Below are positions 4,811 to 9,576 of a stretch of DNA of 64,000 nucleotides, piece by piece. Every line of letters starts with the position of its first letter. Positions within the stretch are counted from its first letter, which is position 1. Both the position numbers and the translations under genes were made by a program. A model generated the notes under the pieces. The model was not told where the DNA came from. It was given only the letters and a program-made list of their open reading frames with translations, and searched no databases. The DNA comes from Nereida sp. MMG025 (GTDB lineage Bacteria > Pseudomonadota > Alphaproteobacteria > Rhodobacterales > Rhodobacteraceae). Location: positions 1,054,001 through 1,118,000 of the forward strand of contig NZ_JAKFZN010000001.1 in NCBI RefSeq assembly GCF_021654165.1, given 5' to 3'.

Positions 4811-4842
4811 AAAAAGCCCCGTCATTTGGCGGGGCTTTTTTG
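4811..4842 (+). terminator. Rho-independent terminator after the BMP-type importer operon
   Basis: A-tract, GCCCCG stem, loop TCATTTGG, CGGGGC stem and a run of Ts. It starts 18 bp after the binding-protein stop codon and looks like a strong intrinsic terminator. Confidence 0.93.
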
Positions 4843-5119
4843 TTTCCCGAACGTAGAAAATAAGATCACGCAACACCCGCTTTTTATGAATTCCAAGATA
4901 GAATCACCCAAGCTTTTTGCACAGACGCCTCCAATCGTTAACGCCTTGTGGATAGCACCAGTTGGTGAAGGGTGATTTAGCGGCACAATATGTGGTATAT
5001 CTGTAACGGCATGATACAACTTATGGTTGTTTTTTATTTTTTCATATTTTTGCTTTGACAGCCCCCACATTGTTCGAGAACCGTAAACAAACATTAACCA
5101 GCAAAAATGGAGCTGCCCC
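4843..5119 (+). promoter_or_regulatory. AT-rich upstream region of the repeat-peptide gene
   Basis: No gene is seen in these 277 bases. The second half is clearly AT-richer than the surroundings (T-runs near 5030-5052). A TTGACA hexamer lies at 5055-5060, but no good TATAAT-like partner follows at the usual distance, so a promoter here is only possible. GGAG at 5109-5112 sits 7 bases before the ATG of the repeat-peptide gene and is a good ribosome binding site. Confidence 0.3.
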
Positions 5120-5446
5120 ATGACACGCAACGACACATTTGATTCAGGCCTTGTTCATATCGCAAATAAATCGCCTGCCTTTGACACAGATCACCAGCAC
5201 GTCACCGACGCTGGCCGCGTACACATCGCAAACAAATCGCCTGCGTTCAGCACTGATTTTGCGGACACACGCGATGCGGGTAACGTGCCAATCGCCAACA
5301 AATCACCCGCCTTCACAACCGATTGCGAAGACGCAGGCCGTGTGCACATCGCAAACAAATCCCCTGCGTTCAGCACGGACTGCGAAGACAGTGGCAAGGT
5401 TGCAATCGCCAACAAATCGCCAGCTTTTGACGTAAAAGCCGCTTAA
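5120..5446 (+). CDS. Multi-repeat small protein with five IANKSPAF units; possible peptide precursor
   Basis: A 108-residue protein with no signal peptide or membrane segment. After an 11-residue head (MTRNDTFDSGL) it consists of five repeats of V-x-IANKSPAF at residues 12-21, 34-43, 56-65, 75-84 and 94-103. They are separated by acidic spacers of 12, 12, 9 and 9 residues that start D/S/T-T-D and end G-R/N/K; the tail is DVKAA. The two 9-residue spacers contain a Cys in the form TDCED. The core octapeptide is invariant, but its codons differ between copies, which indicates selection on the peptide. GGAG lies 7 bases before the ATG. Nine bases separate it from the DUF6065-like gene, so the two are very likely one operon. 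I do not recognise the family. The layout resembles multicore precursors of ribosomally made peptides, but that is inference. Confidence 0.85.
   Translation: MTRNDTFDSGLVHIANKSPAFDTDHQHVTDAGRVHIANKSPAFSTDFADTRDAGNVPIANKSPAFTTDCEDAGRVHIANKSPAFSTDCEDSGKVAIANKSPAFDVKAA
5153..5428 (+). repeat. Five imperfect coding repeats (V-x-IANKSPAF)
   Basis: Thirty-base units at 5153-5182, 5219-5248, 5285-5314, 5342-5371 and 5399-5428. Period is 66, 66, 57 and 57 bases. At the DNA level the units differ at many third positions: Asn is AAT or AAC, Ser is TCG, TCA or TCC, Pro is CCT, CCC or CCA, Ala is GCA, GCC, GCG or GCT, and Phe is TTT or TTC. The encoded IANKSPAF is unchanged. Confidence 0.95.
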
Positions 5447-5455
5447 GCACCCCAG

Positions 5456-6247
5456 ATGAAGGATACCCCAACACCTTCATCGGCCAGCGTTTCCGACAGC
5501 GAAGCGCTGGCCAAATTCTATCGGATGGTGCCGAGCGCCAGCCAACCCGTCCCGGCAGACGCGGCCGCGGGCGGGACTCTGCCATTGCGCGCCTACCGCT
5601 ATTGCGAACCGATCCGTGTGGCGTCGCAACTGGGGTGGTATGTTTTCCCTCCCATGGATTTTTCGCTCATCTGGGACGGCACACAGATTTTCTGGACCTA
5701 CGCCGACGCACCGGATTGGATGCCACTCGACGCGGTTCAATTTCCGAAATTTGCTGGCCAATTCGATGCGTCTGCACCGGATGATATCAAGGGCTATTCC
5801 CCGCCCTTTATGGCCTCGGTGCTCCAACCAGGAGTGTTACAAGTGTGGTCCGGGTTGATTGCGCGCACGGCACCTGACTGGTGCCTTTTGGTGCGCGAGC
5901 CCGCAAACCTGCCGCGCAACCAGCACTTTCAAGGGTTCGAAGGCGTCATTGAAACCGACAGATGGTTCGGCCCTTTGTTCACCAATATCCGCCTGACCAA
6001 GACCGACACACGCGTCGACATCAAGAAGGATCACCCGTTCTTCACGATCCAGCCGATCCACCGCAACATGCTTGATCCGAAACTATCAGGCCGCGTGGAA
6101 AAAGTTGCGGGCATGTCTGAAATGACAGATAGTGATTGGCAGGATTACCGTGACACAATCGTAAACCGCGTTGGTGACAAACGGGTCGCTGGTGACTACG
6201 CCAAGACGTCCCGCAAACGAAGGAAACGTGATGACAGTGCGCCTTAG
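5456..6247 (+). CDS. DUF6065-like protein, possible partner of the repeat peptide
   Basis: A 263-residue soluble protein. Residues of about 45-75 read AYRYCEPIRVASQLGW, then FPPMDFSLIWDG. This resembles the 'YRC-P--IAN--GW ... WNG' pattern I associate with DUF6065 proteins, and the later segments LLVREPAN, GFEGVIETDRWFG and FFTIQPIHRN fit the same family order. No catalytic motif is known to me for this family. The C-terminus is basic (KTSRKRRKR). The ATG is 9 bases after the stop of the repeat-peptide gene, and its 3' end overlaps the MFS gene by 17 bp, so the three genes are probably translated together. A role in modifying or handling the IANKSPAF peptide is inference from position. Confidence 0.7.
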   Translation: MKDTPTPSSASVSDSEALAKFYRMVPSASQPVPADAAAGGTLPLRAYRYCEPIRVASQLGWYVFPPMDFSLIWDGTQIFWTYADAPDWMPLDAVQFPKFAGQFDASAPDDIKGYSPPFMASVLQPGVLQVWSGLIARTAPDWCLLVREPANLPRNQHFQGFEGVIETDRWFGPLFTNIRLTKTDTRVDIKKDHPFFTIQPIHRNMLDPKLSGRVEKVAGMSEMTDSDWQDYRDTIVNRVGDKRVAGDYAKTSRKRRKRDDSAP

Positions 6248-7397
6248 CACATTGCCAGCCTTCGGTATTATCGTCGTCAGCATCGCTTACGTTATTGAAA
6301 TCACGACCTTCCCGCTCATCCTTGGTGCGCTAACCGACACCCTTCATTTGACACGCAGCCAAGGGCTTTGGCTGGCCAGCGCCTATAAGATCGCTCTTGT
6401 TTGCTCGCTTTTGATCGGCGGACCAATGGGCGACCGCTTTGGCAAGGAACGGATCTTTGCTGTTGGAACAGCATTTTTCAGCCTCAGTTCGCTCGCCCTT
6501 TTGTTTGTCCAGAATGGCGAGACCGCGCTTGTGTTGCGCGTTTTGCAAGGCATCGGCGCGGGTCTCTTTTCGCCGATGATTCCGGCTTTGATAGCGGCCC
6601 GCCGACGTGAAAACGCGGTCTCCGCGCTCAGTCGGTGGGGGATGATCACGGGGCTGGCTGCGGCTGTCTATCCATTCATTGCAGCGGTGTTGACGCAAAG
6701 CACCTCGTGGCAAGGGGGCTGGCTGGTCGTGCCACTGTTTGCAACTGTTGCGTTGTTAGGATTACCGATGATCAGCGACCGACAAGATCAAACGCCCAAC
6801 CCCGTCAATGAGGCCAGCGCCAAGGTTGCGCTATCGGCCTCGGTTTGGGCAATCATCGCTTATGTCTTTCTGAATTACGGCGCGACCACATGGTTCATTT
6901 ATGCAATTGCAACGATGCAATCCGACGCCATCAGCCTCACCCAGACTGGCGTGCTTCTTTTTGTGCTTTGGAGCGTTTTTGCACTTGGAAACCTTGCCGT
7001 CAGCCAGCTGAACCGGCTGCTTAGCATGCCAACGCTGCTTCAGATTGGTGCGATTTTTAACGCGATTGGCATTCTTTTGCTGTGTTACGATCCAACCAAC
7101 TTATATCTGGCGTTTTTCACCTCAGGCTTGATCGGCATTGGGATGGCGTTGAACAATGTGCCCACAACCGATCTGGCGTTTCGTATGTCACCGCAATCTG
7201 CACACGGACGGGTTGCCAGCCTTGATATTATCGCCGCGCGCCTTGGCGGTGCGGCTTGCGTGGTGTTGATCCCGTTCCATGCCTCTGCGTCTCTTTGGTT
7301 TGCGCCTGTCTTTGCGGTTTGCGTTGTGGCATTTTCCTTTGCGCTGGTGCTGTTTTCTATGCGCGGCACGCCAAAGCTGGCCGTGCCCGCCGAATAG
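6231..7397 (+). CDS. MFS transporter, possible exporter of the repeat-peptide cluster
   Basis: A 388-residue major facilitator protein with about 12 hydrophobic helices. The MFS loop 2-3 motif A is visible as GPMGDRFGKERIF. I place the start at the ATG 6231, preceded by AAGGAAAC, rather than at a longer upstream frame, since the first helix follows directly (STLPAFGIIVVSIAY). The gene overlaps the DUF6065-like gene by 17 bp. MFS proteins in this position often export small molecules or peptides made by the linked genes. Direction and substrate are not determined by the sequence. Confidence 0.88.
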   Translation: MTVRLSTLPAFGIIVVSIAYVIEITTFPLILGALTDTLHLTRSQGLWLASAYKIALVCSLLIGGPMGDRFGKERIFAVGTAFFSLSSLALLFVQNGETALVLRVLQGIGAGLFSPMIPALIAARRRENAVSALSRWGMITGLAAAVYPFIAAVLTQSTSWQGGWLVVPLFATVALLGLPMISDRQDQTPNPVNEASAKVALSASVWAIIAYVFLNYGATTWFIYAIATMQSDAISLTQTGVLLFVLWSVFALGNLAVSQLNRLLSMPTLLQIGAIFNAIGILLLCYDPTNLYLAFFTSGLIGIGMALNNVPTTDLAFRMSPQSAHGRVASLDIIAARLGGAACVVLIPFHASASLWFAPVFAVCVVAFSFALVLFSMRGTPKLAVPAE

Positions 7398-7435
7398 ATC
7401 TCGCTCCTCGTGCAAGGCCATGGCACTGTGCAAGT

Positions 7436-8506
7436 ATGGAACACGTAACGGATTGTTTGATTGTCGGAGGCGGGATCGCGGGGGTCACAGCTGCCGCAGC
7501 CCTTGCACCGCATATGGACGTCACGCTGTTGGAAGCCGAAGCCAACATTGGCTATCATGCATCGGGTCGATCGGCTGCGATGTTTTTGCGGGACTATGGC
7601 AATGCAACCGTCTGTGATTTGAACTACGCCAGCGAAGCCGCGCATATCGAACAAGGCGTTCTGTCACCCCGCAGTATGGTTTTGCTTGGTCGAGCAGACG
7701 ACCCGTTTGACGCCGATTGTGCCGCTCTCAAAATGACAGAGGTGTCTGTTTCGCAGGCATCCCACCTGCTTCCCATCATCGACACGCACGTCGTCACCCG
7801 CGCAGCCCTAACCCACGCATCGACAGCTCTTGATACAGATCTGGCACTTCAGGCGGCTTTGCGCAGCGCACGAGGCAACGGCGCGACCCTACGCACGCAA
7901 GCGCCCGTCATATCGGCATCGCACACAGGCGGGCGGTGGACGCTCGCAACGGCCAAGGGGCAATTCACGTCAAAAATCTTGGTAAATGCAGCGGGGGCTT
8001 GGGCCGATACTTTGGCACAATTCTGCAGCATCTCTCCTATCGGTCTGACCCCGTATCGCCGCTCAATGGCGCAACTGCCAGCGCCGCGCGGCTATGACAT
8101 AAAGGACTGGCCCTTCACCCTTGCAGCGGGTGATCGCTGGTATGCCAAACCAATCGGCGGGCGCTGGTGCGTCAGTCCAAGCGAAGAAGACCCGACACAC
8201 CCGCATGATGCATATTCCGATGACATGACCCTTGCCGAAGGGCTTGCGCGTTACGAGGATATGGTCACCGCGCCCGTCACCCGCCTTGAGGGAAGTTGGG
8301 CTGGCCTAAGAACCTTCGCCCCCGACCGCGCCCTTGTGATTGGCCCAGATGCAAACGAGCCTTCCTTTTTCTGGCTTGCCGGTCAGGGTGGCTACGGATT
8401 TCAAACTTCTCCCGCGGCGGCCAACCTTCTGGCATCGCATATACTGGGATCACCTACGGATCTGGCGAACCGCACGGTCGCCGCATTACACCCCAACCGG
8501 TTTTAG
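7436..8506 (+). CDS. FAD-dependent oxidoreductase of the DAO family
   Basis: A 356-residue flavoprotein of the D-amino-acid-oxidase/glycine-oxidase-like fold. The N-terminal dinucleotide-binding motif is CLIVGGGIAGVTAAAAL, followed by LLEAEANIGYHASGRSAAMF. A second FAD contact, NAAGAWADTLA, lies near residue 190, and a C-terminal GQGGYGFQTSP loop is as expected. The ATG at 7436 immediately precedes the Rossmann motif. It lies 38 bp after the MFS gene on the same strand and may belong to the repeat-peptide operon, acting on an amine or amino acid, but independent transcription is also possible. It converges with the Hint gene, with a 4-bp overlap of stops. Confidence 0.87.
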   Translation: MEHVTDCLIVGGGIAGVTAAAALAPHMDVTLLEAEANIGYHASGRSAAMFLRDYGNATVCDLNYASEAAHIEQGVLSPRSMVLLGRADDPFDADCAALKMTEVSVSQASHLLPIIDTHVVTRAALTHASTALDTDLALQAALRSARGNGATLRTQAPVISASHTGGRWTLATAKGQFTSKILVNAAGAWADTLAQFCSISPIGLTPYRRSMAQLPAPRGYDIKDWPFTLAAGDRWYAKPIGGRWCVSPSEEDPTHPHDAYSDDMTLAEGLARYEDMVTAPVTRLEGSWAGLRTFAPDRALVIGPDANEPSFFWLAGQGGYGFQTSPAAANLLASHILGSPTDLANRTVAALHPNRF

Positions 8507-9576
8507 GCGGCCAGCGCCATCAATTCCCATGAGCGAACGGTGATAAAATCGTTTTGGTGCATGGGCTGTCCAACCCGCAATTCAGGGAACAGGCTATAAA
8601 GCTCAACCCGCGTTTCGGGGTCTAAGGCCGCAACAGCCTGCGTGCCTGCATCGAAACTTTCGGTCGCCGCGCCTTCGGCATAGATGACCTCATGGTTGTC
8701 AAAGATAAGATGGTAGTAGGTCACAGCCGTTCGATTGGCATCCACGTAGCAGCCGTCAAATGTGGCACAGAGCGATTTGGCCCTGACAAATATCGCCTCT
8801 TCACCAAAGGTCAGCGGCACCCGCATATTGCTATAAAGCATGCGGTGTTGCGGGCTTACCCACAGATCACGACGCGGCAGGCCAAAACCCAAAGCCCCTT
8901 GGCTGATCTTCACAGGCCGCAGCGCCCGATTGCGCCGCAGATCATCCGCGCCCAACTTCCGCGACACAATCATGCGCAGCTTTTGTGAGCCACGATCACG
9001 GGTAATGATCCTGTCACCAACCTTCAGATCTTCGATTGGCCGAATGCCATCCATCGTGTCAATCATTGTGCCGTCAGTCAGGCAGACCACCGAAGTGTTT
9101 TGGGTAATTGGACCGTCAATACGCGTGCCATTGAAATCGAATTGAATGCTCGTGTTACCAGCCGAGGGCGTGATATTACTGCTGACAGCACCCGCGGCAG
9201 GGCCGTTTGCGGCTGTGATCGCGGTTGTCCCACCGCCGATATCGACAAAATTTTGCACAGTCGGATTGCCTGCAGCATCGATGAACGCAACCGCTTCGGC
9301 CTCTGATCCCGAGCCATTTGGGCCACTGCCCGAATTTGGATCTGTCACAGCGGTTTGAAAGGTAAACACGTACCAGCCCGTTGATGGATCAAGCACAGGG
9401 GTCAGCGTATTCAGCGTCACAGCGGCCGCCAATTGTCCATCACCCTGATAGGTCGCGATTGTGAAATCCGACAACCGTCCCATCTGTGCAGGCGGGACTG
9501 TGACCTCTACGTATTCGGCCACGCCCGTGCCATTGGCCACGACGTTTTTGTAGTGAATTTCGCTGATAAAAGCCAT
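8503..9576 (-). CDS. Hint (Hedgehog/intein)-domain protein
   Basis: A 357-residue protein. The N-terminal half is low-complexity, rich in Gly, Ala, Thr and Asn, and may be a secreted beta-type domain (starts MAFISEIHYKN, no classical signal peptide). The C-terminal half is a Hint_2 domain beginning at a Cys (CLTDGTMIDTMDG), with RPIEDLKVGDRIITRD and the block WVSPQHRMLY. Such proteins are frequent in roseobacters and are suspected to self-process, but their role is not established. The Cys at the start of the Hint block is present, so self-cleavage is chemically plausible. The stop overlaps the convergent FAD oxidoreductase gene. Confidence 0.82.
   Translation of the reverse strand: MAFISEIHYKNVVANGTGVAEYVEVTVPPAQMGRLSDFTIATYQGDGQLAAAVTLNTLTPVLDPSTGWYVFTFQTAVTDPNSGSGPNGSGSEAEAVAFIDAAGNPTVQNFVDIGGGTTAITAANGPAAGAVSSNITPSAGNTSIQFDFNGTRIDGPITQNTSVVCLTDGTMIDTMDGIRPIEDLKVGDRIITRDRGSQKLRMIVSRKLGADDLRRNRALRPVKISQGALGFGLPRRDLWVSPQHRMLYSNMRVPLTFGEEAIFVRAKSLCATFDGCYVDANRTAVTYYHLIFDNHEVIYAEGAATESFDAGTQAVAALDPETRVELYSLFPELRVGQPMHQNDFITVRSWELMALAA

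Follow-up and report, generated by a model that had tools for sequence, protein, structure and literature searches.

Tandem-unit genes beside a divergent DUF6065 gene in bacteria and phage contigs suggest an undescribed peptide-making or peptide-modifying system

What does a small bacterial protein made almost entirely of one repeated octapeptide do, and does it act alone? The question is raised by an open reading frame (ORF) in a 64,000-nucleotide stretch of the Nereida sp. MMG025 genome, here called the window, which a preliminary description had read as a possible multicore precursor of ribosomal peptides. The predicted 108-residue protein does carry five exact copies of IANKSPAF, as that description had stated (Table 1), and the repetition goes beyond chance: some 4-mer occurred at least three times in 26 of 20,000 shuffles of the same residues, against an 8-mer present five times in the window protein. 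The conserved window unit is longer than the octapeptide and runs D-x-G-x-V-x-I-A-N-K-S-P-A-F. Its spacers had been described as ending in G-R, G-N or G-K directly before the core, with a basic residue preceding each copy. Neither point held: V-H, V-P or V-A intervenes, and the residue after the spacer G varies (L, R, N, R and K in copies 1 to 5). Basic cleavage marks preceding the cores were accordingly rejected, the residue at that position being variable. The precursor had no match above cut-off in Pfam or NCBIfam; PADLOC gave a single weak match (E 0.011) and PHROGs weak matches only (best E 0.018), all to entries of unknown function. A terminator-like hairpin is visible by eye 5' of the operon, at about 4811-4841, and is absent from the hairpin scan output. 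At its other end, the window precursor (5429-5446) and its relatives L125, L127 and L142 finish in A-A (K-A-A, I-A-A, L-A-A and E-A-A), and L126 in A-V-A; the A-A ends of these IANKSPAF-type precursors resemble ClpXP degradation tags.

Table 1. Positions of the repeat ORF, its units and the two genes that follow it (window coordinates).
Feature	Position	Strand	Basis or remark
GGAG, ribosome-binding-like	5109..5112	+	seven bases 5' of ATG, spotted by eye
Precursor-like ORF, 108 aa, five units	5120..5446	+	ATG start
IANKSPAF copy 1, residues 14-21	5159..5182	+	position count
IANKSPAF copy 2, residues 36-43	5225..5248	+	position count
IANKSPAF copy 3, residues 58-65	5291..5314	+	position count
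IANKSPAF copy 4, residues 77-84	5348..5371	+	position count
IANKSPAF copy 5, residues 96-103	5405..5428	+	position count
Divergent DUF6065 (PF19541), 263 aa, predicted dUTPase-like fold; candidate partner for recognition or modification	5456..6247	+	Pfam, model
MFS transporter, candidate exporter	6231..7397	+	PF07690, 108.4 bits; ATG at 6231, overlaps DUF6065 end

The repeated unit is under purifying selection. Between the window copies, the octapeptide showed a pN of 0.000 with a pS of 0.67, so that selection acts on the peptide, as had been argued earlier from its fixed residues and variable codons. The flanks were freer to change, with a pS of 0.78 on both sides and a pN of 0.31 in the six codons 5' of the octapeptide and 0.46 in the six codons 3' of it, and in each of the six arrays tested (the window and five others) pN was lower in the core than in the flanks. 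Constraint was also seen between precursors that hold a single unit, namely L151-L177 (pS 0.42, pN 0.05) and L151-L168 (pS 0.38, pN 0.17); purifying selection was not clear in the last of the three single-unit pairs, L168-L177 (pS 0.22, pN 0.19), which counts against the precursor reading. A comparison of eight viral units, made over 14 codons, gave a pS of 0.71 and a pN of 0.22.

The repeat ORF is paired with a second gene. Nine bases past its stop codon starts an ORF whose product matches PF19541 (DUF6065) with 67.9 bits against a Pfam cut-off of 26.6. Among 295 genomes of the family, PF19541 was present in 13 and a degenerate NKSPAF-like pattern matched in 56, while clustered NKSPAF copies occurred in four (G000, G001, G237 and G239, G001 being of the same genus as the window genome), all of which encode DUF6065. 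A profile search of genome contigs with a 10-row subfamily alignment then gave 54 named DUF6065 loci, some of which are G-numbered genomes under their names and not all of which are independent (L130 and L133 belong to a single MAG). Reading the sequence ahead of each gene and counting by hand, we found a precursor-like ORF with units of this type immediately upstream of DUF6065 in 46 of the 52 testable loci, the arrangement of a short precursor gene beside a partner gene that is looked for in RiPP systems; L160 and L173 are outside this count, their contigs ending just upstream of DUF6065. No upstream precursor was found in L144, L152, L156, L163, L172 and L176, where the matches in L152, L163 and L172 were chance ones in long other-frame segments and were scored as lacking a linked precursor. 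A genome-wide unit search located a precursor-like ORF elsewhere in the genomes of L144, L152, L156 and L163, with no DUF6065 in the sequence read around it, and in that of L160, within a short piece of sequence; the L173 genome gave an unconvincing match, and the L172 and L176 genomes none. For the Elioraea genomes (L152, L156, L163), the arrays elsewhere are L181, L183, L182 and L187.

The pairing was also counted by an automatic rule. At least two upstream units were counted in 31 of 45 subfamily loci and at least three in 26 of 45, against 32 and 7, respectively, of 1120 random positions in the same loci. Canonical DUF6065 loci, in contrast, had at least two upstream units in 0 of 51 cases and one unit in 10 of 51; because the unit expression was derived from the subfamily loci themselves, this contrast is partly built in. 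A motif-free repeat scan of the canonical loci found no such array either.

The unit shared by these loci can be written D-x-G-x-V-[RKH]-[LI]-[GA], followed by a short variable stretch that often ends in P-x-[FL]. In a locus-weighted consensus of 158 distinct units, entered from 44 of the 46 precursors (L155 and L174 are outside it, as the unit expression does not match them), the fixed positions reached 0.83 (D), 0.67 (G), 0.82 (V), 0.70 (R), 0.69 (L) and 0.85 (G); after this last G come A, N or G, any residue, A or S, P (0.56), any residue, and F (0.36) or L (0.31). Cores of other kinds found beside the DUF6065 subfamily include V-K-L-G-N-Y-S-A-P (G184), V-R-L-G-N-S-G-M-K-T-A-K (G170), G-N-M-S-P-A-F (G334 and G556) and G-M-M-A-P-A-F (G478). 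Within the variable core, conservation in the consensus is too low at every position to mark a modification site, which counts against modification. Neither Cys nor His is conserved across units (His reaches about 9% by weight at one position); together with the lack of a Pfam or NCBIfam match above cut-off, this makes an ordinary structural or metal-binding repeat protein, with which the repetitive make-up and acidic spacers would agree, hardly credible.

Homologues keep the repeats, and the number of units per precursor, compared between relatives, varies from one (L151, L162, L168, L175, L177 and several viral loci) to about 11 (L125 and L147), the array being cut by the contig start in L124, L138, L139, L141, L150, L154, L157 and L159. 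Contigs often start at or inside an array (for example L124, L138, L139, L219 and L222), and copy numbers from draft assemblies may therefore be low. The ORF ends exactly six residues past V-x-L-G in 13 of 44 precursors, which leaves no spacer behind the last unit there. The preliminary description had also pointed to a short head. Across 36 loci, for which starts were assigned by eye, the head before the first unit ranges from about 1 to 36 residues, and given this variation no common N-terminal leader was seen by eye. In the relatives L125, L126, L127 and L178, the array opens with a divergent unit (SPIF, FANKAPAF, SASF and SPMF). Of the multicore reading as a whole, the kept repeats, their variable number and the single partner gene stood; the leader-like head and the basic cleavage mark did not.

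We propose that these ORFs encode leaderless multi-unit precursors whose units would be recognised, and probably modified, by the DUF6065 protein, and whose product, in the IANKSPAF lineage, a linked MFS protein may export, a reading to which we give about an even chance. The precursor would work with the DUF6065 protein encoded directly downstream. In each unit, D-x-G-x-V-[RKH]-[LI]-[GA] would be the element that is recognised, and the short stretch behind it (N-K-S-P-A-F in the window protein) would be the variable core. With a recognition element in every unit no separate leader would be needed, and units could multiply or drop to one. DUF6065, predicted to fold like a dUTPase and to have an altered active site, would bind the unit and most likely modify it; in the IANKSPAF lineage, a general protease would probably release the product and the linked MFS protein export it. 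From the sequences and models we infer that DUF6065 acts on the peptide as an enzyme, that D-x-G-x-V-R-L-G is what it recognises, and that cleavage, export and a biological activity follow. A multi-unit precursor with a dedicated partner would explain the pairing, the recognition-like element, the variable core and the selection at the peptide level.

What kind of protein is the partner? The subfamily forms one clade (support 99/99, 50 of 71 rows) in a tree built without L124, L156, L173, L176 and L177, in which the program flags long branches. A model of the window DUF6065 predicted from 55 rows had a mean pLDDT of 89.0, and its closest solved structures were dUTPases (best Foldseek E 1.5e-4, query-normalised TM-score about 0.35; best VIA-align Z 12.2 over 123 residues, rmsd 4.7 A), so that on the predicted model the protein has a dUTPase fold. 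Sequence comparisons did not carry this further: the Pfam scan gave no PF00692 match, and hhalign against 13 dUTPases from related genomes (L193, read in a wrong frame, was left out of the alignment) gave a non-significant E of 0.44. The putative relation to dUTPases is therefore one of fold alone, which counts against the proposed reading. In the hhalign register, which is unreliable, G-V-I-E-T-D of DUF6065 falls over G-T-I-D-A-D of the dUTPases and motif II lacks its R-S; E166 would then replace the catalytic Asp of dUTPases. The window genome encodes a separate dUTPase. NCBIfam and PADLOC had no match for the DUF6065 protein, PHROGs returned phrog_7084, annotated as of unknown function (E 9.8e-05), and no credible match came from searching the sequences of solved structures with the DUF6065 alignment (best E 0.97). 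A fold search of viral models placed uncharacterised phage proteins at the top (best E 9.1e-10) and dUTPases next.

Canonical and subfamily proteins belong to the same Pfam family and have a set of residues in common: C50, N151, G163, E166 and N177 were present in 12 of 12 canonical proteins compared and D168 in 11 of 12, which fits a retained ligand or chemistry. Other residues (W131, R147 and W170-F-G-P) are specific to the subfamily. These could line a peptide groove, and together with the pairing of precursor and DUF6065, which would be expected equally, they would suit the main rival to our reading, namely that the units act as linear motifs to which DUF6065 binds without modifying them, the array serving as a multivalent ligand in a scaffold or regulatory complex; dUTPases are usually trimers. 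However, precursors with a single unit (L151, L162, L168, L175, L177 and several viral ones) cannot cross-link, which weakens a role in binding only, and the polar residues kept in both DUF6065 branches suggest more than binding, so that we hold this alternative to be rather unlikely. Recognition and modification of the units by DUF6065 found no echo in a model of precursor and DUF6065 as a single chain: the repeats were modelled without structure (pLDDT 33-46) and with no sign of docking, which counts against that reading, low model confidence being expected for a repeat stretch that has no aligned relatives.

The neighbouring genes bear on release and export of the product. Gene calling around the loci was crude (DUF6065 itself was recovered in 40 of 55), so that the neighbour counts taken from it are lower bounds; in many loci nothing was recognised besides the pair. 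An MFS gene was found in at least 7 of 55 loci, those of the IANKSPAF group and Alloyangia, a low number that counts against the proposed reading. A BTAD/TPR-type regulator was found by tblastn in 23 of 55 loci (Pfam on two proteins), a count in which L175 is doubtful and L149 and L166 are short stretches only; its recurrence speaks for the proposed reading. At least 10 loci, from two separate subclades, have a threonine dehydratase-like gene of the PALP family close to the pair (L128-L132, L136, L152, L156, L161 and L163; Pfam on two). The Pfam scan covered the window neighbours, which matched DUF6065, MFS, DAO, Hint_2, Bmp and GCV_T/DAO, and seven neighbours at other loci, which matched BTAD, PALP, MFS, SBP_bac_5 and Hepar_II_III_C; no known RiPP enzyme family was seen among the genes so covered. 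No dedicated protease was recognised among the genes scanned, which counts against the precursor reading. The DAO oxidoreductase gene at 7430-8506 was considered as an operon member and dropped, being absent from the 30 neighbour clusters listed; next to it, a 357-residue protein with a Hint_2 domain is encoded on the reverse strand (8503-9576).

Tandem pheromone precursors are cut into identical peptides, and an array of this kind might likewise yield unmodified secreted signals or bacteriocins, with DUF6065 as a processing helper or immunity protein. The tandem identical units, the MFS transporter of the IANKSPAF group and the regulator genes nearby would all agree with this. It is nevertheless improbable in our view: there is no conserved cleavage mark between units, a signal peptide was not seen by eye, and under the crude gene calling a linked transporter was not recognised in most loci.

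The pair also occurs on plasmids and in viral contigs. The window DUF6065 matched five plasmid records, two of which, from Rhizobium, cover over 90% of it at 49% identity; on the Rhizobium plasmid that was examined, a three-unit precursor annotated as a hypothetical protein is followed by DUF6065 and then by two neighbouring pieces of MFS-like sequence. A relative of the subfamily protein occurs in 20 viral contigs. A precursor-like ORF accompanies it in 14 of the 15 that could be tested (L214-L218, L220, L223-L226, L228, L230, L232 and L233; none in L227), or in 13 of 14 independent ones, since L232 and L233, with 961 bases of identical sequence, represent one virus; their peptide, counted by eye, has an F-R-L-G-G repeat instead of the full unit. 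The other five (L219, L221, L222, L229 and L231) lie too near the contig start. No close relative of the window precursor was confirmed in the viral contigs, and tblastn of the window DUF6065 and one canonical DUF6065 against phage records gave no match.

This occurrence raises the alternative of a phage-derived effector module, in which the pair would be cargo that acts on the host or on rival phages, the bacterial copies being domesticated. Besides the 20 viral contigs themselves, the location of the pair fits such a view: a terminase large subunit gene lies downstream in 16 of them (L214, L216-L229 and L231; PHROGs on L214 and L228), and L230 is in a head-gene region with a head maturation protease and a major head protein. 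Yet terminase had no match in the named bacterial loci examined (L124-L178 and nine others), and a regulator is found near many bacterial copies. These two points bear on carriage, not on mechanism; we consider this alternative very improbable. In 15 of the 16 terminase loci, a gene on the opposite strand appears response regulator-like by eye, and it has matches in the bacterial loci L151, L158, L164 and L167.

The other branches of DUF6065 have surroundings of their own. Upstream of canonical DUF6065, an opposite-strand ORF is found in 12 of 51 loci (L063, L064, L068, L071, L090, L092, L094-L096, L098, L099 and L110), the only widely shared neighbour within about 1.5 kb and a possible partner of this branch; by eye, it resembles proteins of the YbaK/prolyl-tRNA-deacylase type. 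Downstream, nothing was common to more than 5 of the 51 loci. A third, weakly matching DUF6065-like group comprises L011, L012, L013 and L014 (enlarged: L055, L056, L058 and L057). Low-complexity Ser-Asn-rich ORFs were read near it in L011, L013 and L014 and are suggested in L012 via an antisense frame. An S8-type peptidase-like ORF was seen by eye in L011-L013, and an annotated S8 peptidase also lies near the plasmid DUF6065 L180.

How does the proposed leaderless precursor compare with known systems? Multicore RiPP precursors include those of the cyanobactin PatE type, the fungal dikaritin UstA type and the plant orbitides. The likeness lies in near-identical short units within one ribosomal precursor, variable copy number, strong conservation at the peptide level and an adjacent partner gene. 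Unlike them, the IANKSPAF system has no conserved leader that we could see and carries a recognition-like element in every unit, and the enzyme proposed for it is a DUF that resembles dUTPases in predicted fold, no known RiPP enzyme having turned up in the neighbours scanned. A classical leader is missing from some RiPPs, so that its absence lowers the case for membership and does not exclude it. The IANKSPAF precursor, known here from its sequence, may work like a multicore RiPP precursor; we do not file it as a RiPP, because no conserved leader was seen, no known RiPP enzyme was among the genes scanned and the modification is deduced. Yeast alpha-factor-type precursors, which are tandem pheromone precursors, similarly hold tandem identical peptides with spacers, whereas the present system shows no conserved protease sites, is bacterial and is paired with DUF6065. 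From dUTPases (PF00692), which it resembles in predicted fold, the DUF6065 protein differs in having no PF00692 match and no significant profile similarity, and from canonical DUF6065 the subfamily differs in its upstream units. A full-text literature search for DUF6065, PF19541 and ANKSPAF found no paper, combinations of multicore RiPP with Alphaproteobacteria returned none, the abstract openings returned by further searches do not mention such a system, and the dUTPase-like fold was not tied to peptide modification in the single literature search on this point.

Present in dozens of bacteria as well as in phage contigs, repeat genes beside DUF6065 thus suggest an undescribed system that makes or modifies peptides. 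That it is a new ribosomal-peptide class, with leaderless precursors whose units each bring a recognition element and a modifying enzyme of dUTPase-like fold, Alphaproteobacteria-wide and borne on plasmids and phages, we put forward tentatively, as possible though somewhat doubtful. If true, a fold known for nucleotide hydrolysis would have been turned to peptides, and a system of two genes would provide an unusually simple model for the recognition and modification of repeated units. Should the reading hold, one branch of DUF6065 would acquire a testable function, and the motif D-x-G-x-V-R-L-G could be used to find further members.
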